In this document: one piece after another, positions 10,630-45,978 of the stretch
How positions within the stretch are numbered: position 1 is the stretch's first letter
How the letters are laid out: the number at the start of each line of letters is the position of its first letter
Assembly (NCBI GenBank): GCA_013314775.1
Contig: JABUFB010000014.1
Coordinates: forward strand, 124,001 to 188,000
Direction: 5' to 3'
Length of the DNA stretch: 64,000 nt
Source of the DNA: Armatimonadota bacterium
Lineage (GTDB): Bacteria; Armatimonadota; Zipacnadia; Zipacnadales; JABUFB01
Made by a program: the position numbers and the translations under genes
The notes under the pieces: model-generated
The model's database searches: none
What the model saw: only the letters and a program-made list of their open reading frames with translations
What the model was told of the DNA's origin: nothing

Positions 10630-11844
10630 ATGAGACACCGCCTGATCATTGCAGCCATCTTGCTGACTATTCCGGTGCTGCTCGTTGGGTGCAAAGAGGA
10701 GCCCGAGGCGGAGGCTTCCGCGCCACCACCTCCGGACCCGGGTTGGCCCAGCTACTCGCCGATGGCTGCCGCCATCGAGTTCGAGTTGCAGGAGGCCCAT
10801 TATCATATCCGCAAGGGCCGGTACATGGCGCCGGACAGCTATGGCAGCGAGGCAGAAATGCCCGCTGCGATGGGCTACACCCAGTGGGCTTTCGCCAATG
10901 CCACGCGCCTGTACGAATCTCCCCAGTCTGCCGCTGACGACAAGCAGAAACTTGAGATCGAGACCAAGCGCAACAGTCTTTTCGCAGGTGCGACTGACGC
11001 CGCAGATCATCTCATCCTCGAACATGGCGGCCGCTTCTCAGTGCCCCACGGTTATGTACCGCGGTGCAAATGGTGTGGGCTTCCCATGCCCAAGAGCCTC
11101 ATGCGCTGGCCGATGGAGGATGGGGAGAAGCGAGTCGAGTGTCCGCGCTGCGGCGCCCGCGACTCATTCCCCACTGGCCTGATCTACCGTTGCCCGAACT
11201 GCCACGACGTGGTTGCCGGAACACAACTCGGGCCGCGCTGCCCGACGTGCAGCCGCAAGTGGGCAGGGGCTGAGAAGCATTGCTCTCGTTGTGGTTACGC
11301 GACGAGCGTCCTCAGCCGACAGGGCCAACGCTGCCCCAACTGCAAGGCCAAGTGGAACTTCGACATACCCTTCGGCAACTGGCCATCTCGTGCGCCGATC
11401 CCGGTGGACTTCACCGGCTCAGGCGAAGGCGACCGGTGCACCGCCTACACTGCAGTTACGGGGAGACGCTGTCCGAACAAACTGCCCTCGCACTCGAAAG
11501 ACAAGGCCGATCTGGCCTGCTGGTACCATCGTGGCCAGAAACAGCGTGACGAGGTTGCCGCCTCGGGTGGCGGCGCACCGGCGGGCGCTGGTGGCGCCGG
11601 CGCGGCCGGTGGGATGGGCGGCGGCATGGGTGGTCCCGGCGGACCGCCTGGAATGGGCGGACCTGGTGGGCCTCCCGGCATGGGTGGTCCCGGCGGACCG
11701 CCTGGAATGGGCGGGCCCGGTGGACCTCCCGGAATGGGCGGACCGGGCGGGCCTCCGGCCGGCATGGCGCCTGGTGGTGCGGGCGGGCCTCCCGGCGGCG
11801 CTGCGGCCGGGCCTCCTCCGGGTGACATGGGTGGCGCAGAGTAG
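10630..11844 (+). CDS. Lipoprotein with three zinc-ribbon pairs and Gly-Pro-Met tail
   Basis: 404 residues; ATG at 10630 with ggaggg at 10618-10623. A standard lipobox (LLVGC) ends the signal at Cys21. Residues about 145-240 contain six CxxC knuckles (CKWC, CPRC, CPNC, CPTC, CSRC, CPNC), enough for three zinc ribbons. Residues about 270-300 hold a different Cys/His motif, C-x-A-x-T then GRRC and a final CWYH, resembling the short zinc motif of DUF5763-type proteins. The last roughly 90 residues are repeats of GGPGGPPGM. It shares architecture, in another order, with the gene just upstream and is probably cotranscribed with it. Role unknown. Confidence 0.8.
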   Translation: MRHRLIIAAILLTIPVLLVGCKEEPEAEASAPPPPDPGWPSYSPMAAAIEFELQEAHYHIRKGRYMAPDSYGSEAEMPAAMGYTQWAFANATRLYESPQSAADDKQKLEIETKRNSLFAGATDAADHLILEHGGRFSVPHGYVPRCKWCGLPMPKSLMRWPMEDGEKRVECPRCGARDSFPTGLIYRCPNCHDVVAGTQLGPRCPTCSRKWAGAEKHCSRCGYATSVLSRQGQRCPNCKAKWNFDIPFGNWPSRAPIPVDFTGSGEGDRCTAYTAVTGRRCPNKLPSHSKDKADLACWYHRGQKQRDEVAASGGGAPAGAGGAGAAGGMGGGMGGPGGPPGMGGPGGPPGMGGPGGPPGMGGPGGPPGMGGPGGPPAGMAPGGAGGPPGGAAAGPPPGDMGGAE

Positions 11845-22582: not shown

Positions 22583-22689
22583 ACCCATGCCCGGGGTGTG
22601 CGCGCTGCTGTTTGTTCAATAACCGGCGTGCGGCCGTTTTACTGGATACCTGTCCGCAGGTTCGAACCACCGACGGGGAAGCCCACAGC

Positions 22690-24819
22690 ATGCAAAGCAA
22701 TACGCCCCGTTTTGACGTACGGGACTACTTCCGCATCATACAGAAGCGGAAGTGGTTCATCATCCTCGTTGGTCTGGCCGCCATGCTCATCGGCGGCCTG
22801 TACGCTATCAGCTACCCCAAGAGTTACCGTGCCACTGCCCTGATTCTCGTGCAGCAGCGCCAGGCCGGCGTTGTCTGGCTGACCCCGTCCGATGGCAGGG
22901 GACGCGGTGGCGGCGACGAGGGCACTATCGCGCTCGAGACCCAGGCCAGCATGATCATGGGAAACCAGCTGGCGGAGAGAGTCGCGGCCGCGCTCAAGGA
23001 AAAGCGCTCCGGCGAGCGGGTTCTCACCGACGCTCAGGAAGTGCAGTCGTCGCTCACGGCCTCCACCATGCAGCCTGACCGCATCCGCATCGAGGCGGAG
23101 GCGCCCATCGAGCGCAATGCCATCGCTTTCGCGCGGGAAGCTGCGGACCAGTTCGTCATCATGAACACCGAGTTCAAGCGCGCCCAGGACAGGAAGGCCC
23201 GCGAATACCTGGAGGAGCAGCTCGAACGAACCCAGGAAGGCCTCGCGCAGATCTCGGAACAAATCATGGAGTTCCAGAACCGGACCGGCGTCTACACGGA
23301 CGACGCCGGCGCGGCATCGGCCGTGGAGGCGATGAACCGTTATCAGGCGGCGCGCGCTGATGCATTGGCTGAACTCGCCGCGGTGGAGGCTCAGCTGCAG
23401 CTTGCTGAGAACATGTTGTCCCAGGCGAAATCTGGACAGAACAAGACCCAGACAGTCCCGAACCCGACAATGAGTGTGCTGCAGAACCAGCTGATCACCG
23501 CGGAGGTGACGCTGGCGGAACTCAAGACGCGCTACACTGATTCCCACCCTGCGATTAGTGAAGCAAAGGCTCGCGTCACGGCTCTTCGGGATCAGATCAA
23601 GACCACTCCGCCAACCATTGAGGTCCCATATGGCATGATGGGGACCGAGTCCGCGACGCTGGCGGAGCGTCGCGACAGTCTCCTTGCCCAGCGCGTGGAA
23701 CTCCAGGCGCGTATCCGGGCCATTGAGAACGTGGAGCGGCAGGTGAACGCGCAGGCAGCGGGGATCCCGGCAAAGCAGGCGGCGCTCAATCAGCTCCGGG
23801 CGCGCAGCGATCTATTGCGGCAGACCCACGAGCGAATACTGGAGGAGTTGGAGAACCGGCGCCTGTCGGAAGAGGCCAAAAGTGGGACGGCGATGGTCTT
23901 CGACAGCCCGACCCGCGCGGTCAGCACCAGCCCGTCTGTAAGTCGCGGCCTCCTGTTCGCCGGTGTCCTTGGCCTAGTCGCAGGCATCGCTCTTGCCCTG
24001 GTGCTGGAGGCCCTGGACGATACAATTCACACCCCCGAGGATATCACGCGCGACATCGACATCAACTTCCTGGGCATGGTTCCCCTGCTGGACACGGGAG
24101 TCAACGAGCTGATCACCATCTCGGCACCGAAAAGCCCACCAGCCGAAGCATACCGGACCCTGCGCTCCAACATCAACTTCAGCCTGCTTGAGGACCCGGC
24201 GAGCATGTTCCTGGTCACCAGCGCGGGCAGCGGAGAAGGCAAGACCGTCACGGCGTCGAATATTGCGGTAGTGTTCGCCCAGGCGGGCCAGAGTGTGATC
24301 GTGGTGGATACCGACCTGCGCCGGCCCACCTTGCACCGACTGCTACACGGGGATTCCTCGCGCGGTCTGACCAACATTCTCGTGGGCGAGGCGAGCATTG
24401 AGGACGTGCTTCAGGATACGCATGTTGAGGGCCTGAAGCTCATCTCCAGCGGTCCCCTTCCACCCAACCCCGCGGAGATGCTGGACTCCGATCCAATGCG
24501 GCGGTTGATCCAGGACCTCAAGGAGTACGCCGACATTGTCATCTTCGACTCACCGCCTGCGATCGTTCTCACGGACGCGGTGGTGCTGTCTTCCAAGGTG
24601 GAGAGGACGATTCTGGTCGCGGAGGCCGGACAGGTCACCAAGGAAGCCTTCGGGGAGGCCGTGCGGCTCATCCGGAATGCTCGCGGCAACTTGCTCGGCG
24701 TGGTGTTGAATAAGCTGCGACTGAGCGCCAGCGACTACTACTATTACTACTACTATTACGATTACAGCCACGAGAGTCCGCGGGTGATCGCTCCTCCGGG
24801 GGCGGATACCGAGGTGTGA
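22690..24819 (+). CDS. Wzc-like polysaccharide co-polymerase / bacterial tyrosine kinase
   Basis: 709 residues from the ATG at 22690. Residues about 15-60 start a Wzz domain with the first membrane segment (FIILVGLAAMLIGGLY). Long coiled-coil regions fill about residues 150-410, and a second membrane segment lies near 420-445. The BY-kinase domain follows with Walker A GSGEGKT (near 512-520), Walker A' VIVVDTDLRRP (near 538) and Walker B VIFDSPP (near 617). The C-terminus has eight tyrosines in a row plus one more (near 682-692), the expected autophosphorylation cluster. Such proteins set exopolysaccharide chain length and export. No glycosyltransferase, polymerase or export gene lies beside it. 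Confidence 0.93.
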   Translation: MQSNTPRFDVRDYFRIIQKRKWFIILVGLAAMLIGGLYAISYPKSYRATALILVQQRQAGVVWLTPSDGRGRGGGDEGTIALETQASMIMGNQLAERVAAALKEKRSGERVLTDAQEVQSSLTASTMQPDRIRIEAEAPIERNAIAFAREAADQFVIMNTEFKRAQDRKAREYLEEQLERTQEGLAQISEQIMEFQNRTGVYTDDAGAASAVEAMNRYQAARADALAELAAVEAQLQLAENMLSQAKSGQNKTQTVPNPTMSVLQNQLITAEVTLAELKTRYTDSHPAISEAKARVTALRDQIKTTPPTIEVPYGMMGTESATLAERRDSLLAQRVELQARIRAIENVERQVNAQAAGIPAKQAALNQLRARSDLLRQTHERILEELENRRLSEEAKSGTAMVFDSPTRAVSTSPSVSRGLLFAGVLGLVAGIALALVLEALDDTIHTPEDITRDIDINFLGMVPLLDTGVNELITISAPKSPPAEAYRTLRSNINFSLLEDPASMFLVTSAGSGEGKTVTASNIAVVFAQAGQSVIVVDTDLRRPTLHRLLHGDSSRGLTNILVGEASIEDVLQDTHVEGLKLISSGPLPPNPAEMLDSDPMRRLIQDLKEYADIVIFDSPPAIVLTDAVVLSSKVERTILVAEAGQVTKEAFGEAVRLIRNARGNLLGVVLNKLRLSASDYYYYYYYYDYSHESPRVIAPPGADTEV

Positions 24820-25807: not shown

Positions 25808-27907
25808 CTACGGGACGATGAAACTCCCGGTCCATTCCGGCATGGGCGGCGCGGTTCCCTCGCGCAGCATCTTCAGCCACTTCTCATCGGTGAGACGGTC
25901 GCTGACGGGCCATTTGAACTCGTGGTAGCTCATGACACCACCTTTGGCTACCTGCAGCCCTCCAGCGGGGTGCGGGGTAATCACGTAGATGCGGTAAGCC
26001 CACCCCGGCCCGACCTCGAGGCACTGGCCAAAGCTGGTGTGGATATCGGCGATGGTGGCGATGTTCCGGTCGGCCTCGCTGGTGATCTCGAACCACCGCA
26101 TGTACGGGTTGTCGGCTGCCACCTGGACCGTGAGCCGCTCGAGCTCCCCTCCGAAGTATTGAATACGCCAGTAGTCGTCCTTGCTGAGGGGGATGTTCCG
26201 CAAGTGCCTTTCGGCGCACTCCTTCAGGAACATGAGCATCCCGCCGAACTCATCGCAGTTGGCTTCGATGCGCTCCGTGAGCAGGCCGTGCTCTTTGAGA
26301 CCGTCCCGGAGCAGGCGCGCGAGGTAGCCCAGTCTCCCGAAGGTCAGCGGATACGGCTCGACGTATCCCTGCACCGCCTTCGGCTCGTCCCCACCCATCT
26401 CTGCGCCTGACGGCTTCCCATAAAGGATGGTGTCATGCCGCAACTGCGCCCAGCTTCCCAGGCTGGTAACGAGTTCTTTGTCCAGCCAGGCGACGCTGCG
26501 CATGAAGGTCGGATAGCCCTCGCCGGTGGGGGCAAGAAGTGGTTTGAGCGCGTGGAGCCATCCGTAGTAGGTGTTCTGCCACCAGTCGGTTTCTGGGAGC
26601 GCGGCGAACTCGTTGCAGACTTTGGTGAGCTGGTCGGTGTATCCCTCGAAGCGCCCCTGTTTGAGCTGGCCCAGGAGCAGGTCTTCGGCCCGTGTGGACC
26701 CGAGCACTGCCATGACATCGAGACCCATCGGGAAATAGCGCTGATTGCCCTCATCGTCGCCTCCGACCAGCGGGTATACCAGTTGCTGCAGCGCATAGGA
26801 ATCCGGAATGAACCGCTGGCCCATGAACCGGAACTGGCGGCCCTGTGGCGGCGGGTGCAGTACCGTTTCCAGGTTTCCCTGTTCGTCGGCCTGCTGGAAG
26901 GCCGGTGCGATGCGCGGAGCGGGAAGTACCGCTCTGGCGCGGCGGATGAACTCGTCCAGGAGCACCGGGTCGCCGAGGTTGTCCAGCTTCGGGCCGAAAA
27001 CATCCACGGCGATGGGCTCGTAGTCGCGCCAGGTCAGGTCATCGGCAGTGCCCACGAGATACGCGGTCGGCTCATAGATGCGCTCCCAGAGGCTGCGGGC
27101 CCAGTCGTTGCTCCGCAGAATCCGGGTTATCAGCAGGGCCTGGGCGCAGTGCCGGCGGATCAGGTCCGGGTTGTCCTTCGGCTGATCCAGCTCCAACGCG
27201 GTCAGCCCGTACCACATCATGGCCATGAAGTACTTGGTGAGCTCAGGACTGCGGGTGTAGTGGCCGCGGGGGATAAACTGGTCATAGTGAACCGTGCGCT
27301 CGAACAAGGGGGACATGGAGCGTCCGCCGGCGCTCTTGATCAAAGCCAGCTCCTGCTCGGCCATGCCCGTTGCCGGCGGGAAGGGCTGGTTGCCCACGGT
27401 GGGCTCCTTCCCGGTGAGCAAGTTGCGGGCGACCATGAAATAGGCGAGATTTCGCAGCGCGGCGTCCCGTATGATGCCGTCCGTGTTGGCGAGATTGCTC
27501 AGGCTCTGCCCCGTGCAGAACTGGGTTAGCTCAGTGCAGAGGGTCAGCAGCTTCTCCTGCTCGATGGTCCGCAGGGCGAAGTCAAACAGGACGTGATAGG
27601 CCTGAAGCACGGAGTCGACTGTGATGAAGTTAGGGATCGGGCCGAGTTCGGAGTCTTCGCCATATTCCTCGTACAGGAGGAACATCTGCTCCGCGTCGTC
27701 AGGGACGACCACGAAGCCCTTCCTGGCCAGCGCCGCCAGTTGGGCGTCGCTGAGACCGGTGATCTTCTCCATGTGGCGTACGCCGGACAGGTCTGCCGGT
27801 ATCTGGTAGGCATCGACTGACGGCTGCACGTTGGACTCGTACTGGGCAGGGATGGCGAAGGCCAGCCGGACGGTGGTTGCCAGCAGCAGTGCAATGCAGA
27901 TTCGCAC
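25808..27907 (-). CDS. DUF3160 domain protein, secreted
   Basis: 699 residues. A signal peptide covers residues 1-19 (LLLATTVRLAFA). The body matches the DUF3160 pattern: GFVVVPDDAEQMFLLYEEYG, PNFITVDSVLQAYHVLFDFALR, a central YFMAMMWYGL segment, RYFPMGLDVMAVLGS, and a C-terminal NPYMRWFEI block. The family is largely alpha-helical, extracytoplasmic and of unknown function, common in environmental bacteria. It diverges from the CBM9-like gene at 28110 with about 200 bases between, which hold the promoter for that gene. Confidence 0.88.
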   Translation of the reverse strand: MRICIALLLATTVRLAFAIPAQYESNVQPSVDAYQIPADLSGVRHMEKITGLSDAQLAALARKGFVVVPDDAEQMFLLYEEYGEDSELGPIPNFITVDSVLQAYHVLFDFALRTIEQEKLLTLCTELTQFCTGQSLSNLANTDGIIRDAALRNLAYFMVARNLLTGKEPTVGNQPFPPATGMAEQELALIKSAGGRSMSPLFERTVHYDQFIPRGHYTRSPELTKYFMAMMWYGLTALELDQPKDNPDLIRRHCAQALLITRILRSNDWARSLWERIYEPTAYLVGTADDLTWRDYEPIAVDVFGPKLDNLGDPVLLDEFIRRARAVLPAPRIAPAFQQADEQGNLETVLHPPPQGRQFRFMGQRFIPDSYALQQLVYPLVGGDDEGNQRYFPMGLDVMAVLGSTRAEDLLLGQLKQGRFEGYTDQLTKVCNEFAALPETDWWQNTYYGWLHALKPLLAPTGEGYPTFMRSVAWLDKELVTSLGSWAQLRHDTILYGKPSGAEMGGDEPKAVQGYVEPYPLTFGRLGYLARLLRDGLKEHGLLTERIEANCDEFGGMLMFLKECAERHLRNIPLSKDDYWRIQYFGGELERLTVQVAADNPYMRWFEITSEADRNIATIADIHTSFGQCLEVGPGWAYRIYVITPHPAGGLQVAKGGVMSYHEFKWPVSDRLTDEKWLKMLREGTAPPMPEWTGSFIVP

Positions 27908-30409: not shown

Positions 30410-32797
30410 CTACTCTTCCTCTTCGCCGCGCCAGGACCCCTGGGTCTGGCAGGCCTTGAGACAGCCCTCGAGAATGCACGTGAAATGCTTCTGGATCGGG
30501 TCCTTCTGTGCGAGCCCCTCCATGATGTGCTCGACGGTCACCTTCCCCACCGGGGGACGGACATCGGTGCTCTGGCCTCCCCACTTGGGGCCCTCATCAC
30601 CAACGAGCGCATACCGCTTGGCGAACTCGCACCGCAGGCGATCCCACCGGGCGATGGCTCCCTCGTACTGCCCGCAGCCCACCACAACCGTCTCGTCGTC
30701 GTTCAGCGCCATGACCGGGCAAGCTTCGATACAGGGCGCCTCACACTGTGCGCAGGGCCAGTCGTCGGCATCCAGCGGTTTGTCGGTGGGAAGTGGAGCG
30801 TCGGTGACCACGGCGATAAAGCGCTGGGTAACGCCATATTCCGGTGTGATCGGGGCGCCGTGCAGGCCGATGGTCGCCAGACCTGCGGCGGTTGCGGCGA
30901 AGCGGTTGCCCAGGGCGTCCGGCTGAAGCCCGCGGGGATTTGCGACGAGGCTGCCGGAGCCTGACAGGTCGGTGGTGATGGCGGCCTTGTAACCCATCTC
31001 CTCCAGTCGCCGGGCCGCTTTCACCGCCATGTACCGCAGCCAGCGATTCACCTGGTATGTGGCGTAGGAGTACGGGCCGACTGCCTGCGCCGGGGGTTCA
31101 GCGGCGCGCTCCAGGTTACCGAAGGGGAAATGGTAGCCGATGACCAGGACGCTCTTGGCGCCCTTGAGGTGATCGCGCACCCGCATGAGTCGGGCGCTCT
31201 CATTGGGACGGCTCTCGGGCTTCGCGGGACCGTGCATGGGTCCGGCGTCTACGACGTTGACCTTGAGTTCGGCCTCATCGATGAAGGACGCATACTGGTC
31301 GATGAGCCGGTCCACGCATGCGGGGTCAGCCACCCCCACCATGTCCGCGCCTTCATCCAGAAGAATCGCCTCCAGACTCAGCCGCGCTTCCTCCATATCC
31401 GACGGGCGCTCCGGCTTGACCGGGTGTACGCGCTTTCCCGGTTGCAGATAGGCACCGGTGGCGAGGCATGCCCATTGTACGCGGGTCCCGAATGCTTCGG
31501 TCTCGGCGCGATTCTTGTCGTTCATGCGCAGCGCCAGCCCCGATGCCATAACCGCCTTGCCCAGGTCGATATCATGCCCCGGAACCGCCGAGTAGCCCAC
31601 GCTCTCCAGATAGCGGCAGGCATCCAGCTGCATGAATCCCAGCCAGTCCGACAGCGTGGAGGCCACGAGGCCCACCGGGGTCGCGCTGTCTGCGGTCGAC
31701 CCGGGACTCTGCAGTGACGCGGGGAAGCGGCATGCGAATACCACCAGAGAATTGGCGTCGGGCAGGTGCCGGCGCACAGCGAGACCGAGCTTGTCCCACT
31801 CATGGGGCCCGCAGACCGCCGCCATATCCGCTTCGTGGTCGAACAGGATGCGGTAGACGTTTTCGGTGGCATGTCTGTCGGGGCATGCAGGGCGCCTCGC
31901 GGTCTGCCAGTCGGGGTCAATCCCGACTCTCCTGCGCCGGAACGGGCGGCAGAAGTCGGGGTCTTCTAGCCGCAGGTGTGGGGGCAGGCAAAAGCGCAGA
32001 CACGAGCCTTCGGTGCCTCCACGGCGGCCGTGGATCGCGAGGTGCTCCAGGATGGTCTCCTCGGTAACTGCTTCGGGTGTCTCCAGGTCGATGCTCAGGC
32101 CGAAATGCTCGGCCCACGCGCAGCGCCACTTGTTCTTGTTAGCGTAGCGGAAGGTCTTGCCGCCAATCTCAACCTCGACCTCGGGCCCCAACTCCTGATC
32201 AAGCGCACCCATCGGGCACCACTTGACGCACTGCATGCACCGGTCGCAGAGTGGGTCACCGTCATACATGGGGGATGGTTCGAGGTCGGCGTCGGTGACG
32301 AGGCAGCACAGGCGCTGGCGCGGCCCGTATTCCGGCGACAAGAACAGCCCGCTGTAGCCGATCTGTCCAAGCCCGGCGGCGGTGGCAGCGTGGATGTCAG
32401 AAAGGTCCGGCGCGAAGCTTGCTTCCACCTCCTGGTAAGGGCGAAAGCGCCATACATTGGTGGCGGGTATCGCTACCACATTGTACCCCTGCTCCTCGAT
32501 GAACCGCGCCACCTGGAAGGAGATGCATTCCAGCTTGGTGTTCATGGTGCCCTGGATGTTGTATGGCCCACCGTGATGGGGCTGGTTCTCCCCATTCTCT
32601 TCGCCACCCAGTTCCACCGCGGCGTCCGGGTGGTGGATGCCGATGACGAACACGCACCGCGCCCCCGGTAGGTGCCCCTCGGGTGACATCATCAATGGCG
32701 CGTTCTTGTAGCGCGCTGACGGAGCAACGCCGACCAGATCAGCGCCCAGTTCCAAGGCCATCGCCTTCACGGCATCGGTGAGGGCAACATCGGGCAT
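30410..32797 (-). CDS. Three-module QueG-like (epoxyqueuosine reductase-like) iron-sulfur protein
   Basis: 795 residues, about twice the length of QueG. The opening motif of QueG-like proteins, a Gly-Ala-Asp followed by Val-Gly-Val-Ala, occurs near residue 20 and again near 484; a degenerate form (ADMAAV) occurs near 322. Module 1 has a 4Fe-4S cluster site CDRCMQCVKWCP (183-194); module 3 has CAQCEAPCIEACP (near 679) with further Cys near 775. Module 2 lacks a ferredoxin motif. True QueG uses cobalamin and two clusters to reduce epoxyqueuosine; the B12-binding region cannot be confirmed here. Members outside QueG include reductive dehalogenase relatives. It is followed by no related gene. A redox enzyme with B12 is the best guess. 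Confidence 0.75.
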   Translation of the reverse strand: MPDVALTDAVKAMALELGADLVGVAPSARYKNAPLMMSPEGHLPGARCVFVIGIHHPDAAVELGGEENGENQPHHGGPYNIQGTMNTKLECISFQVARFIEEQGYNVVAIPATNVWRFRPYQEVEASFAPDLSDIHAATAAGLGQIGYSGLFLSPEYGPRQRLCCLVTDADLEPSPMYDGDPLCDRCMQCVKWCPMGALDQELGPEVEVEIGGKTFRYANKNKWRCAWAEHFGLSIDLETPEAVTEETILEHLAIHGRRGGTEGSCLRFCLPPHLRLEDPDFCRPFRRRRVGIDPDWQTARRPACPDRHATENVYRILFDHEADMAAVCGPHEWDKLGLAVRRHLPDANSLVVFACRFPASLQSPGSTADSATPVGLVASTLSDWLGFMQLDACRYLESVGYSAVPGHDIDLGKAVMASGLALRMNDKNRAETEAFGTRVQWACLATGAYLQPGKRVHPVKPERPSDMEEARLSLEAILLDEGADMVGVADPACVDRLIDQYASFIDEAELKVNVVDAGPMHGPAKPESRPNESARLMRVRDHLKGAKSVLVIGYHFPFGNLERAAEPPAQAVGPYSYATYQVNRWLRYMAVKAARRLEEMGYKAAITTDLSGSGSLVANPRGLQPDALGNRFAATAAGLATIGLHGAPITPEYGVTQRFIAVVTDAPLPTDKPLDADDWPCAQCEAPCIEACPVMALNDDETVVVGCGQYEGAIARWDRLRCEFAKRYALVGDEGPKWGGQSTDVRPPVGKVTVEHIMEGLAQKDPIQKHFTCILEGCLKACQTQGSWRGEEEE

Positions 32798-32838: not shown

Positions 32839-35136
32839 TCATCGGTGTGGGTGCGCAAAGTCCTGCGGGTGTTGGCCGGCCAACGAGCGTCCGAGGGCTG
32901 TGAGAGCGATGACGATGAAGACAACGCCCTCGGTAGGCAGCACGGCGAGGTTACCCGCGTCCAGGTATCGGCAGATGGCCAGCGCCGCGTGGCGGCTGAC
33001 TGGCGGGCAAGTCTCGCAGGTGAGGATGGCGTCGGCGATCTCCCGGGCGGCGGTCGCGAAGCGCCCGGTTTCGTCATTTGCAAGGGCTTCGGCAGCGGAT
33101 CTTGCCGCACGGGCGATTGCCGGTCTGAGCTCCGCCGGGCACCGCCTGGGAGAGCGCAAGAGCCGGACGATGCGCTGCATCATGGTTTCCCCCAGGGCCG
33201 CGCGCTGCAGGTCATCAGCGTTGGCGAGCCGGTAAAAGTGGTTCTTCTCGCCCAGCACCCGGCCTACGCCGTTGAGCACCTGCATGCGGACCACCGGCTG
33301 GTGCAGACGGGGAAGTCCCGCGAGGATGGGCTCCACCAGCTCCAGTTCCTCGCGGTGGGTCGCGGCTTCCACGAGAGTGGGGAAGAGGTCGCGGTCGAAG
33401 GGGCCCTGAAGCGCTTCAAGGAGTGTGCGGGATGCCTCGGGATCGCTGATCTCTCCCAGGGCCATGGCCGCGCTGGTCCGGACGCGCAGGTCGGGGTCCT
33501 GAAGTGCGCGCAGCAGCTTGGCTGAAGCGGACACGTCTCCAATCTTTCCCAGCGCCTCGGCGGCCTGTGAGCGGATGTCGGATTCCTCGTCTTCCAGGGC
33601 TTCGAGCAGGGGGTCCACCGCCTCCCGGAAATGCCCTTCGCCCAGACCTCGCGCGGCTTCCGCACGGACCTCGGGGCTCATATGGCCCAGGGCTTTCACC
33701 AGAGGTGTCACGGCGAGTGGCGTCCCGGACCGCCCGAGATCCCGAATCGCCCGCGCTCGTCGGCTGTCTTCCTTGCTTACGCTGTACAGCGCGAAATTGT
33801 AGGCGAAGCTCAGCAGGTTGCCCCGGAATTGTCCGAGGAGATAAAGAGGCGAGGTAGCTTCGGACTCCACGAGCAGCGCGGAAATGATAATGGGCAAAAT
33901 GAAGACGCATCCGGCGAGACCGAAGATGATCTGGATTGACGTGAACTCCAGTCCGGCAATCTCCATCGTTGCGGGAAGGTGATTGCGCAGGTAGCCGCCC
34001 ACGAAGGGTCCCGCAGCAGACGCAAGAGCGGACATGCCTGTCCAGTTCGCCCAGTAGGGACTATTGTCCTGGCCCTGGGGGACGATCTTGTACAGCAGGC
34101 TGCTGATCGCCACCGACAGGCCGGAGATGGACAGGCCATTGAGGACGCAGGCGATGGGAACGACCCAGCTGCAGTTCTCGGCGGTGGTGAAGACCCACAA
34201 GAGCGGTACCGCCATGCCCGGTACAATGAGCAGCTGCGCGAGGGGCTTGGAGCCGTAGCGCTGTGCCAGCGGGCCAAAGGACAGGTATCCCGCGACCATG
34301 CAGAAGAGGGTGATATTGGTGTAGATGGCGATCCGGCTGTACGTCATGTCCAGGTAATTGAGCATGTAGATGGCGTAGAAGGCGCCGGCCAGAGACATGC
34401 CAACGGTCCAGGACGATGCGAAAATCGCGAGCCGGGTGAAGCCGGGAGTACGCCATGGCTCGGCGAAGCTGCGCAGAAAGCTGCCGCCCTCTTCCACTTC
34501 CATGCGCGGCATGGGGGTCACGAGCAGCAGCCAGTAACCCGCGAGGCCGGCGATCCAGCCCACGATGAAAACGAGTGAGAAGCCGCGGAGGCCCGGCACG
34601 CGGTCTACCCATTGGCTAGCCGCGTACAGGTAGATCATGGAAGTCACCGTCAGGATGAACATGCGGCGCCCGGTGTACGTGGCCCGCACGGCTTCGGGCA
34701 GCACATTGCTCAGCCATGAGCTGAACATGGGGCTGACTGTGTGGCCGATGAGATAAGCGGTGACCAGAAGGGCGCTGACCCCGATGAACCGCAGTTCGGG
34801 CGGCGCCAGGGCGAGAAGCACCACGCAACTGGCCGCAGTTATCTCCAGGTGCCCCATGGTGACCATGAACAACCGGCGATTGCGAATGCGGCGGGTCACG
34901 TAGAAGCTGAGCATCTGCGAAACGCCAGCGAGCGAGGAGAGGCTCACGAGGAACGCGATCTGCGCTTCCTGAAGGCCGATCTCGGATGCGAACCCCGTGA
35001 ACAGCGACCCGGCCACCGTAGCGTTCGGTCCGTAGATGGACCAGAGCGCACCGCAGAGCACGAAATGCCGCAGAGCGTGAGCAATCTTCTGTTGCGACAG
35101 CTTCTGGCTTTCCATTGTCCTCGTCGCGTTGTGCAT
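32839..35136 (-). CDS. MFS transporter fused to HEAT/PBS-lyase-like repeats
   Basis: 765 residues from position 35136; an ATG seven codons in (35115) is an alternative. About residues 20-455 hold twelve hydrophobic segments with an MFS layout, including a loop with RRIRNRRLF after the second or third helix. Residues about 458-700 are tandem HEAT repeats of the PBS-lyase type (AVTPLVKALGHMSPEVRAEA, AVDPLLEALEDEESDIRSQA, ASAKLLRALQDPDLRVRTSA), each about 30 residues. A short hydrophobic end follows. The repeats should be cytoplasmic and could bind a partner that controls transport. The substrate is unknown. A strong promoter lies upstream on the minus strand. Confidence 0.85.
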   Translation of the reverse strand: MHNATRTMESQKLSQQKIAHALRHFVLCGALWSIYGPNATVAGSLFTGFASEIGLQEAQIAFLVSLSSLAGVSQMLSFYVTRRIRNRRLFMVTMGHLEITAASCVVLLALAPPELRFIGVSALLVTAYLIGHTVSPMFSSWLSNVLPEAVRATYTGRRMFILTVTSMIYLYAASQWVDRVPGLRGFSLVFIVGWIAGLAGYWLLLVTPMPRMEVEEGGSFLRSFAEPWRTPGFTRLAIFASSWTVGMSLAGAFYAIYMLNYLDMTYSRIAIYTNITLFCMVAGYLSFGPLAQRYGSKPLAQLLIVPGMAVPLLWVFTTAENCSWVVPIACVLNGLSISGLSVAISSLLYKIVPQGQDNSPYWANWTGMSALASAAGPFVGGYLRNHLPATMEIAGLEFTSIQIIFGLAGCVFILPIIISALLVESEATSPLYLLGQFRGNLLSFAYNFALYSVSKEDSRRARAIRDLGRSGTPLAVTPLVKALGHMSPEVRAEAARGLGEGHFREAVDPLLEALEDEESDIRSQAAEALGKIGDVSASAKLLRALQDPDLRVRTSAAMALGEISDPEASRTLLEALQGPFDRDLFPTLVEAATHREELELVEPILAGLPRLHQPVVRMQVLNGVGRVLGEKNHFYRLANADDLQRAALGETMMQRIVRLLRSPRRCPAELRPAIARAARSAAEALANDETGRFATAAREIADAILTCETCPPVSRHAALAICRYLDAGNLAVLPTEGVVFIVIALTALGRSLAGQHPQDFAHPHR

Positions 35137-35353: not shown

Positions 35354-36166
35354 ATGACCGGTCACTGGCTGAGGCTGAACAAGCTGTTTTCCGAAGGCAA
35401 GCGTGCCGTGGTGGTTGCGGTTGATCATGGCGAGTTTTTCGGGCCCACGCCCGGAATCATCGACCTTCCCCGGGTGATCTCTGCCGTCGAGGCAGCCGAC
35501 AGCATCCTGCTGTCACCCGGCATGATGGCCCACTGCGGCAGCGTTTTCAGCCGGCGCGGGGCGCCCCTGGCCATGGTGAGGCTCAACTGGAGCACGGTCT
35601 TCTGTGAGCAATGGGACTACGACCGCGCACGCACCGCTCCGGTGGTCACTCCACTGGAAGCTCTTGCCATGGGCGCGGATATCTGCCTGGCATCACTCAC
35701 GCTCACCACTGTTGACGAGACCCAGGACGCCCGAAATGTCGAGATATTCGCGCAGATCGCATCGCAGAAACGGGACTGCGGGATTCCCCTTGTGGGGGAG
35801 TACTATCCGGCGGCGGTGGGAAGGCTCTCGCCGGATGAACTCCATCAGCGGGTCTATGTGGCCTGTCGGGTGCTGGCGGAACTCGGCGCTGACGCGATCA
35901 AGACCTTCTACACGGGGGAGCGGTTCGCGGAAGTGGTTGAGTCTGTGCCGATCCCCGTCCTGGCGCTCGGGGCCGAGAAGTTGCCCACAGCAGCGGATGC
36001 GTTGAAGCTCGCGCACAATGCGGTGATCGCCGGCGCCCGCGGAGTAGTCTTCGGGCGCAATGTCATCCAGGCGTCAGATCCGGCCCTGTTCCTCCAGGGC
36101 CTGAAGATGGTGGTCAAAGAGGGTGCGACACCCACCGAAGCGGTGACAGGCCTTGGGCTCGATTGA
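35354..36166 (+). CDS. Class I fructose-bisphosphate aldolase-like (DhnA/LsrF family)
   Basis: 270 residues; ATG at 35354 behind gaggggag. The TIM barrel of the DhnA/DeoC group is shown by VVVAVDHGEFFGP near the start, a catalytic Schiff-base Lys in ADAIKTFYTG, PIPVLALG, and GARGVVFGRNVIQ near the C-terminus, where the phosphate is bound. Members include class I FBP aldolase and the autoinducer-2 enzyme LsrF. With PFK elsewhere in the window, a role in sugar phosphate cleavage is plausible, but the substrate is not fixed by sequence. It converges with pcm. Confidence 0.88.
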   Translation: MTGHWLRLNKLFSEGKRAVVVAVDHGEFFGPTPGIIDLPRVISAVEAADSILLSPGMMAHCGSVFSRRGAPLAMVRLNWSTVFCEQWDYDRARTAPVVTPLEALAMGADICLASLTLTTVDETQDARNVEIFAQIASQKRDCGIPLVGEYYPAAVGRLSPDELHQRVYVACRVLAELGADAIKTFYTGERFAEVVESVPIPVLALGAEKLPTAADALKLAHNAVIAGARGVVFGRNVIQASDPALFLQGLKMVVKEGATPTEAVTGLGLD

Positions 36167-44919: not shown

Positions 44920-45978
44920 CTACGCGTAACTGCCCTCTTCCCGCGCGATATCCAGCGCCAGGCGGTAGTTCTCCAGCGGCACCGTGGGCGGGATTGAGTG
45001 GTCGGAGTGGAAGATGTAGCGCCCGCCTTCCGCGGCGCAAGAGACCTTTGGACGCACTTCAGCCTCCACCTCCTCCAGGGTTCCGCCGAGTCTTTCCACA
45101 CTGATGTTGCCGAAGAGCGTGATCTGATCGCCGTACAGCGCCTTCAGCGCGCAGACGTCGCTGCCCGCGCGGGATTCCAGGGGCTGCGCGCAGGCATACC
45201 CGGCCTCGATCAGCAGGGGGACGAAATCGGTGACATTGCCGCAGCAGTGGTACATCGGAACGATGCCCCGCTCCCAGCAGGCGTCGGTGATACGCCGCAG
45301 GCTGGGCAGCACTATCTCCCGGAAGAGCCTGGGCGAAAAGAGCATTCCGTTGCGGTAACACAGGTCCGCGAAATGCCACAGGGCGTCGGGTTTGGCGATT
45401 TCGCAGGCCGCATCGATGAGGTCCAGGTTCAGGCGCGTCTGGTACTCCACCATCTCGGCCACTACATCCGGGTGATCCATCATCATCTGTAGCGCGCGCT
45501 CGAAACCCATGGCCATAAGCGCCCACCAGATGGGCTCCGAGGGGACCATGGCGAACCAGTGGCCGGCCGCATTGTACTGGGCCACGAGTTCGCCATAGTT
45601 CGCGGGAATGCGGCCCGGCGAGAACCGCAGGCGCTCTCGGTAAGTCCGCCAGTCGTCGGGAGTGTTGATGAGATACTCGACTTTGTGCGGCGTGGCGGTC
45701 TTCGACTTCCACCGCCATTCGGTGACGCCATCTGCATTCCGCACCAGCGATCGGTCTTCGTAGTCCTCCAGAGTCTCTTCAGGCAGTGTGAGCGACCCAT
45801 CGAACCAGCTCGTCCCGATGGGGTCCATGTCCAGCCACACCAGGGGGTCAACATCGTCCGGCATGCCCTCGCTCCGCCAGCGCTCCAGGGTCTCGGGCCA
45901 GATGCAGATCTCGCAGAGCGGGATTCTGTCGGGCAGTTCGCCGGTGAGGGCCCGGCGCATCCGTTCGCGACTGGTCAT
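44920..45978 (-). CDS. UroD/MtaA-like family protein
   Basis: 352 residues; ATG at 45978 behind gaggag. The start MTSRERMRRALTGELPDRIP is the usual opening of UroD-type TIM barrels. A zinc-type His-x-Cys lies in MYHCCGNVTD, but the later Cys expected of MtaA enzymes is missing; the segment reads FHSDHSIPPTVP, so another His or Asp would have to complete a metal site. HemE porphyrin-binding arginines are not evident. Relatives in sugar and glycan loci are of unknown function. DUF1846 lies 63 bases upstream, so it is in the minus-strand operon. Confidence 0.8.
   Translation of the reverse strand: MTSRERMRRALTGELPDRIPLCEICIWPETLERWRSEGMPDDVDPLVWLDMDPIGTSWFDGSLTLPEETLEDYEDRSLVRNADGVTEWRWKSKTATPHKVEYLINTPDDWRTYRERLRFSPGRIPANYGELVAQYNAAGHWFAMVPSEPIWWALMAMGFERALQMMMDHPDVVAEMVEYQTRLNLDLIDAACEIAKPDALWHFADLCYRNGMLFSPRLFREIVLPSLRRITDACWERGIVPMYHCCGNVTDFVPLLIEAGYACAQPLESRAGSDVCALKALYGDQITLFGNISVERLGGTLEEVEAEVRPKVSCAAEGGRYIFHSDHSIPPTVPLENYRLALDIAREEGSYA

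Follow-up and report, generated by a model that had tools for sequence, protein, structure and literature searches.

A window of 64,000 nucleotides from an Armatimonadota bacterium (Zipacnadia; Zipacnadales; contig JABUFB010000014.1 of assembly GCA_013314775.1, positions 124,001 to 188,000 of the forward strand) carries on its minus strand, at 30410..32797, a gene for a protein of 795 residues that is built from three related modules. The gene is a single open reading frame, with its ATG at 32797, the end of its stop codon at 30410 and no internal stops. Its product is a real, conserved three-module member of the class III cobalamin/4Fe-4S superfamily. The favoured reading, held with fair confidence, is that it functions as a soluble, cytosolic, cobalamin-dependent reductase of class III (the RdhA/QueG superfamily) with two complete B12 and 4Fe-4S redox units in each chain. 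The two redox centres probably lie in modules 1 and 3 (M1 and M3), with a non-catalytic module 2 (M2) between them, and the enzyme probably breaks a chemical bond in some food compound.

Three modules in one chain

The first-pass annotation of the gene described a Gly-Ala-Asp-type opening at residues about 20 and 484 and, in worn form, at 322. These openings are present as GADLVGVA at residues 18-25, GADMVGVA at 483-490 and the worn EADMAAVC at 322-329. M1 covers residues 3-300 (31898..32791, minus strand), M2 residues 306-458 (31424..31882, minus) and M3 residues 470-785 (30443..31390, minus). Module profiles were built from an alignment of 62 full-length relatives, the window protein included, and compared by hhalign. 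M1 matched M3 with an E-value of 1.9e-58 (probability 100, 259 columns), M1 matched M2 at 3.6e-27 (probability 99.7) and M3 matched M2 at 1.5e-24 (probability 99.6). A chance repeat is ruled out by column shuffling, which gave best E-values of 0.042 for M2 and 0.016 for M3 (30 shuffles in each case), and the profile of an unrelated family, IclR, gave 0.09-0.18. The triplication is real, M2 included.

A survey of how widely the fusion occurs, which had been proposed as a check, was made by scanning genomes of named species with two peptide patterns; the best 80 of 96 relatives were taken, as 78 loci, and the spread reported here is a lower bound. Most loci hold one open frame of about 740-835 residues from the chosen start. 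With the module profiles applied to genes called in these loci, the order M1-M2-M3 was found in 75 proteins, from anaerobes belonging to several phyla (a few share a genome or overlapping loci), and the nearest relatives are collinear with the window protein over their full length. An assembly fusion is thereby ruled out, and the earlier description of a fused three-module enzyme stands. According to record titles, relatives are present in Armatimonadota/Zipacnadia/WS1, Oscillospiraceae and other Clostridia, Lentisphaeria, Kiritimatiellae, Phycisphaerae and other Planctomycetota, a spirochaete, Verrucomicrobia and Omnitrophota (a split and a partial copy). The isolate Oligosphaera ethanolica DSM 24202 carries two copies (loci L054 and L080), and some match was found in 46 of 61 genomes comprising the window's own and its nearest relatives. 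Members split into two frames occur at L088 and L091. At L055 (8-7003) a relative lies at the end of an open frame of 2332 residues, which is either a genuine fusion or an open frame that reaches this length by chance.

Purifying selection acts on all three modules. The ratio of nonsynonymous to synonymous substitution rates (dN/dS) was 0.038 for M1, 0.089 for M2 and 0.032 for M3 in comparison with the relative at L021, and 0.072, 0.268 and 0.152, respectively, in comparison with that at L022; the best reading of M2 is that it is non-catalytic yet selected. In a FastTree phylogeny of 110 module rows, M2 (support 71) and M3 (support 83) each formed one group, as did M1, which also took in two M1 fragments from a split and a partial gene, and single-module paralogues lay apart. 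This tree, with its long M2 branches and weak deep support, fits a triplication that arose once and then spread.

The single-module paralogues are often found as adjacent gene pairs, some of which have their own IclR gene. At 12 loci (L047, L077, L079, L081, L084, L087, L093, L105, L107, L109, L115 and L116) the paired genes belong to two different tree groups and stand in the same order. This pattern is the authors' reading of the tree, in which the base of one of these groups has poor support and L079 has two genes of the first kind; paralogues at L042 and L104, for example, do not follow it. The adjacent pairs are likely to constitute a two-subunit class III system.

Predicted fold, iron-sulfur cysteines and catalytic positions

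Structure prediction, also suggested in the first pass, gave confident class III cores for M1 and M3 and a nitroreductase-type core for M2. AlphaFold2 modelled the whole protein with a mean predicted local distance difference test score (pLDDT) of 95.1 and a predicted template modelling score of 0.94, and the top solved matches of this model in Foldseek were NpRdhA (4.5e-14), PceA (9.6e-10) and QueG (1.3e-7). In VIA-align the whole model, over the M1 range, matched PceA with Z 17.3 (root-mean-square deviation (rmsd) 3.4, 232 residues aligned) and QueG with Z 17.2 (rmsd 5.5, 235 aligned), followed by NpRdhA (Z 12.6, rmsd 12.7, 349 aligned) and CblC (Z 9.8, rmsd 3.8, 178 aligned). M3 predicted alone (pLDDT 95.8) matched QueG at Z 17.8, PceA at 16.9 and NpRdhA at 16.1, with CblC as the next family at 8.3. 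The core matches to PceA, QueG and, for M3, NpRdhA reach Z 16-18 with the ferredoxin part included, and the next rows, CblC at about 8-10 and nitroreductases at 5-8, lie far lower. Class III proteins are recognised by a nitroreductase-type cobalamin-binding core followed by a two-cluster ferredoxin region; in the models M1 and M3 are each predicted to form this full core with its ferredoxin tail, and M2 the nitroreductase-type core alone. M2 (model residues 322-451) matched CblD (6x8z) with Z 8.9, rmsd 2.8 and 115 residues aligned, a likeness that is a lead, with its Z near the background of common nitroreductase folds. The first-pass annotation would have been undone by an M2 with no QueG-like fold; M2 does align with both other modules and has retained a nitroreductase/CblD-like fold. 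The PceA alignment spans model residues 1 to 401, and in the authors' reading of the model part of M2 may replace the later chain of PceA, packing on M1.

Conservation across the 62 aligned rows agrees with the earlier claim that modules 1 and 3 have their own iron-sulfur (Fe-S) motifs and the middle module has lost them. The M1 cysteines 184, 187, 190, 194, 226, 266 and 270 are conserved without exception in the 62 rows, and those of M3 (682, 685, 689, 693, 723, 779 and 783) in 61-62 of 62. No Cys is found among the invariant or near-invariant columns of M2, nor does M2 have a conserved Asp/Asn or a conserved Arg at the catalytic positions. The first-cluster (FeS1) motif of RdhA is given as CXXCXXCXXXCP in PMC6797604. 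It is matched exactly by M1 in all 62 rows, as C184-x2-C187-x2-C190-x3-C194-P (32216..32248, minus; spacing 2,2,3). In M3 the motif reads C682-x2-C685-x3-C689-x3-C693-P (30719..30754, minus), and half of the members have one extra residue: the spacing is 2,3,3 in 32 of 62 rows (one with a Cys replaced), 2,2,3 in 29 and 2,4,3 in one.

Residues at the catalytic positions of the class are also retained in M1 and M3. Arg162 of M1 (32312..32314, minus) occupies the position of PceA Arg305 and NpRdhA Lys488 in ungapped alignments and is Arg in every one of the 62 rows. Arg659 of M3 (30821..30823, minus) holds the same position in alignment to solved structures, and is Arg in 57 of 62. Asn114 of M1 (32456..32458, minus; Asn in 60 of 62) is at the probable position of PceA Asn272 and QueG Asp130, an equivalence that comes from the authors' own manual pairing with the PceA sequence. 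Asp610 of M3 (30968..30970, minus) was placed at the same position by HMMER alignment to PceA, and is Asp in 51 rows and Asn in 11. The QueG chains have Tyr at the Arg305 position in the printed alignments to solved structures, in agreement with the statement in PMC4646009 that QueG is without an equivalent of PceA Arg305.

Host genome and gene neighbourhood

The genome encodes a second three-module copy (G000:C8, locus L099), with an IclR gene directly upstream, and several single-module paralogues. Control of the window gene by a cobalamin riboswitch was considered and rejected, as there is no Rfam match in the window; among 12 loci of relatives scanned, one (L064) has such a riboswitch, downstream of the family gene and the next gene. 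Carriage as mobile-element cargo was likewise rejected: there was no phage match, and the single plasmid match was partial and concerned a Monoglobus pectinilyticus protein with one module. A promoter and terminator scan was uninformative.

A gene in which an MFS transporter and a HEAT/PBS-lyase repeat domain are joined in a single frame of 765 residues lies 41 nt upstream (32839..35136, minus) and is likely to be co-transcribed with the three-module gene. Adjoining the transporter, in divergent orientation, is a DeoC/LacD-family aldolase (35354..36166, plus; Pfam DeoC, E 3.5e-15), and the same cluster stands beside the pair at L021; the aldolase is a possible pathway partner.

Neighbour genes were called with a simple longest-frame caller. 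IclR-type regulators account for 32 of 1184 called genes, occur within three genes of 26 of the 75 three-module genes, and stand directly upstream on the same strand of 19 of the 71 that have an upstream gene on the contig, suggesting inducible catabolism. Near neighbours (137 of 195 near genes) and far genes (133 of 302) were compared by Pfam, nine loci being omitted as near-duplicates or later additions. The near pool held 14 IclR, 8 AraC, 7 solute-binding, 6 URO-D, 4 sulfatase and 3 heparinase-type matches, and the far pool at most one IclR, two AraC and two solute-binding matches. The far pool represents 133 of 139 drawn genes; five of the others were missed inadvertently, and the sixth (L087:977-1759), an IclR gene adjacent to a different pair of family genes, could raise the far IclR total to 2. 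Among individual neighbours are GH20, NAGLU, GH123, GH67-type, sulfatase, aldolase and dehydrogenase genes. Together, the regulators (IclR, AraC, LacI), the transporter and the carbohydrate genes suggest inducible uptake and catabolism of a compound that is probably of carbohydrate type, a substrate link that is weak since many of these organisms are rich in such genes.

Several further observations concern the neighbourhoods and the window. At L023 (6957-9284) a gene for a glycyl-radical enzyme, pyruvate formate-lyase-like, directly follows the three-module gene, and related frames are present in the L054 and L089 loci. A URO-D family protein is encoded in the window at 44923-45978 (minus), and genes of this type recur near the family in other genomes. 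Elsewhere in the window are a Wzc-like polysaccharide chain-length/kinase protein whose tail has eight tyrosines in a row (22612-24819, plus), a Gly-Met-Pro-rich tandem repeat of about five copies of a 27-base unit near the end of a reading frame (11622-11756), and a DUF3160 protein with a full-length Pfam match (25808-27907, minus).

Relation to known systems and proposed function

The first-pass annotation called the protein QueG-like, a label that is right for the fold and wrong for the enzyme. The NCBIfam QueG family (TIGR00276) scored 54.4 bits, below its cut-off of 200, and the reductive dehalogenase family (TIGR02486) 89.2 bits in two stretches, below its cut-off of 160.35; by score, the three-module protein is closer to reductive dehalogenases than to QueG. 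No HEAT family matched the 795-residue protein in Pfam at E up to 1, and the alignment of the M3 model to QueG covers residues 2-252 of the latter and stops before its HEAT domain at 258-372. In this genome QueA (407 bits) and QueH (198 bits) each clear their cut-off, and no protein does so for QueG. Queuosine synthesis does not, therefore, need the three-module protein, as another enzyme can perform the epoxyqueuosine step, although a second enzyme for this step is conceivable. A role as epoxyqueuosine reductase, or as its functional replacement, is consequently very improbable. It is true that the core fold and the two clusters are shared with QueG (5D08, 5D6S), that M3 alone has QueG as its top match, though tied with PceA, and that the position of QueG Asp130 is Asp in M3; nevertheless QueG is one unit with a C-terminal HEAT domain, acts on tRNA and lacks the Arg conserved in M1 and M3 (PMC4646009), and several paralogues per genome with IclR linkage are ill-suited to a tRNA housekeeping step. 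The accompanying remark that normal QueG is a single unit is correct, but QueG is not the best baseline, because NpRdhA and JtRdhA are described in PMC10463259 as having a duplicated cobalamin-binding domain, which provides a precedent for a degenerate extra module. A catabolic reductive dehalogenase proper, acting on a natural organohalide, is a doubtful reading that nonetheless deserves weight; M2 and M3 would then resemble the degenerate and active domains of NpRdhA, with M1 as an extra copy. Reductive dehalogenases are the best named family, the catalytic Arg/Lys position is conserved, and no start resembling a twin-arginine translocation signal was seen in the sequence, as in catabolic RdhA (a feature taken from PMC6797604). 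PceA (4UQU and related) shares the nitroreductase-type core followed by the two-cluster ferredoxin region, the FeS1 spacing, identical in M1, and the Arg305 and probably Asn272 positions kept in M1, but it is a single catalytic unit that is respiratory, with a canonical second-cluster (FeS2) motif and a known halogenated substrate. NpRdhA (4RAS, 6ZXU) is cytosolic, has Lys488 at the Arg position and has an extra cobalamin-type domain beside the active one, as M2 stands before M3; it differs in having two modules with one active unit and no complete N-terminal unit, and both of its domains superpose poorly on M2-M3 as a rigid body (rmsd 12.7). Also against a dehalogenase are the score below cut-off, the lack of any reductive dehalogenase over cut-off among the genome's 11 matches, an FeS2 region unlike that of RdhA, and neighbours that are sugar genes and regulators; the top 25 families among the near genes include none linked to halogens.

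A cobalamin-handling or corrinoid-activating protein, similar to CblC and CblD or to the reductive activators of corrinoid methyltransferases, is unlikely. The pairing of a B12-binding with a degenerate nitroreductase-type module in CblC/CblD (MMACHC/MMADHC), found together in PDB entry 9mrs, resembles M1 with M2: M2 is similar to CblD, and the M1 and M3 cores to CblC (Z 8-10). URO-D-type proteins also make up 6 of the 137 near genes, and one is present in the window. However, CblC and CblD serve cobalamin trafficking and have a B12-binding nitroreductase-type fold without Fe-S clusters or ferredoxin tails, and M1 and M3 carry Fe-S tails; the resemblance is near the level of common nitroreductase folds, and the paralogue expansion and regulators point to catabolism. 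At the URO-D loci L058 and L091, the ten neighbours scanned were oxidoreductase, aldolase, deacetylase, peptidase, cyclase or unassigned genes, with no corrinoid protein among them. A tentative variant of the favoured reading is that M1 alone is catalytic and M3 is an electron-storage or structural copy, with its clusters kept without turnover. M1 is the most conserved module relative to L022, and the Arg and Asp positions of M3 vary, but M3 keeps all its Fe-S cysteines and a full core, and its dN/dS relative to the nearest relative is as low as that of M1.

Several observations also weigh against a class III reductase with two redox units. Each half has seven invariant cysteines, and two fully Cys-ligated [4Fe-4S] clusters need eight. 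The FeS2 motif of RdhA, given as CXXCXXXCP in PMC6797604, does not occur: the M1 cysteines after FeS1 follow C-x31-C-x39-C-x3-C in 46 of 62 rows, the rest being similar, and the second-cluster cysteines of M3 follow C-x27-29-C-x54-55-C-x3-C in most rows. PMC4646009 describes class III as having no cobalamin-binding sequence motif, so that B12 binding rests on the fold. The conserved Tyr of the class above the corrin is not confidently placed in M1, where an ambiguous helix register puts Asn86 or Tyr79 near; in M3, Tyr576 or Tyr581 is possible. Arg659 and Asp610 of M3 vary in some members, and M3 may thus be inactive in part of the family. CobQ had no match in the genome, so the cofactor would be salvaged; in favour of the reading, three cobalamin riboswitches over cut-off mark the genome as that of a cobalamin user, and together with the lack of a CobQ match they are as in a cobalamin salvager. 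The transporter pairing recurs only in the close relatives at L021 and L022, and most loci, like the window copy itself, are without an adjacent IclR gene.

Under the favoured reading of a reductase with two redox units, a low-potential carrier would pass electrons into the ferredoxin tails of M1 and M3, and from there to base-off cobalamin held by each nitroreductase-type core. Cob(I/II)alamin would then reductively cleave a bond between carbon and halogen or oxygen, the conserved Arg and Asn/Asp assisting with protons. M2 may descend from a copy whose clusters and catalytic residues have been lost, and may now act as a pseudo-dimer partner packing on M1. M1, as the most constrained module, would be the likelier main site, and M3 may either take the following step or work on the same substrate. 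A bolder proposal, put forward only as a conjecture, is that of a new class III B12 family with two complete catalytic units in one chain, together with a sister system of separate subunits from adjacent genes in fixed order. The paired units would reductively break two C-O (or C-halogen) bonds of a substrate derived from carbohydrate, in anaerobes that degrade polysaccharides, gut Clostridia and Lentisphaeria among them.

No description of the three-module family, or of a two-subunit system of paired single-module proteins, was found in the open-licence literature, mainly in titles and the starts of abstracts. In PMC4646009 the authors of the QueG structure raised the possibility of other B12- and [4Fe-4S]-dependent families, as yet uncharacterised, for which a sequence handle is lacking. 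The three-module chain is a candidate family of that sort with a clear handle, being multi-copy in some genomes and present in several phyla and in a cultured strain. Should both sites prove active, the protein would be, as far as the open-licence literature shows, the first known case of two catalytic centres within a single class III chain, and its substrate would tell whether class III does more than dehalogenation and tRNA maturation.

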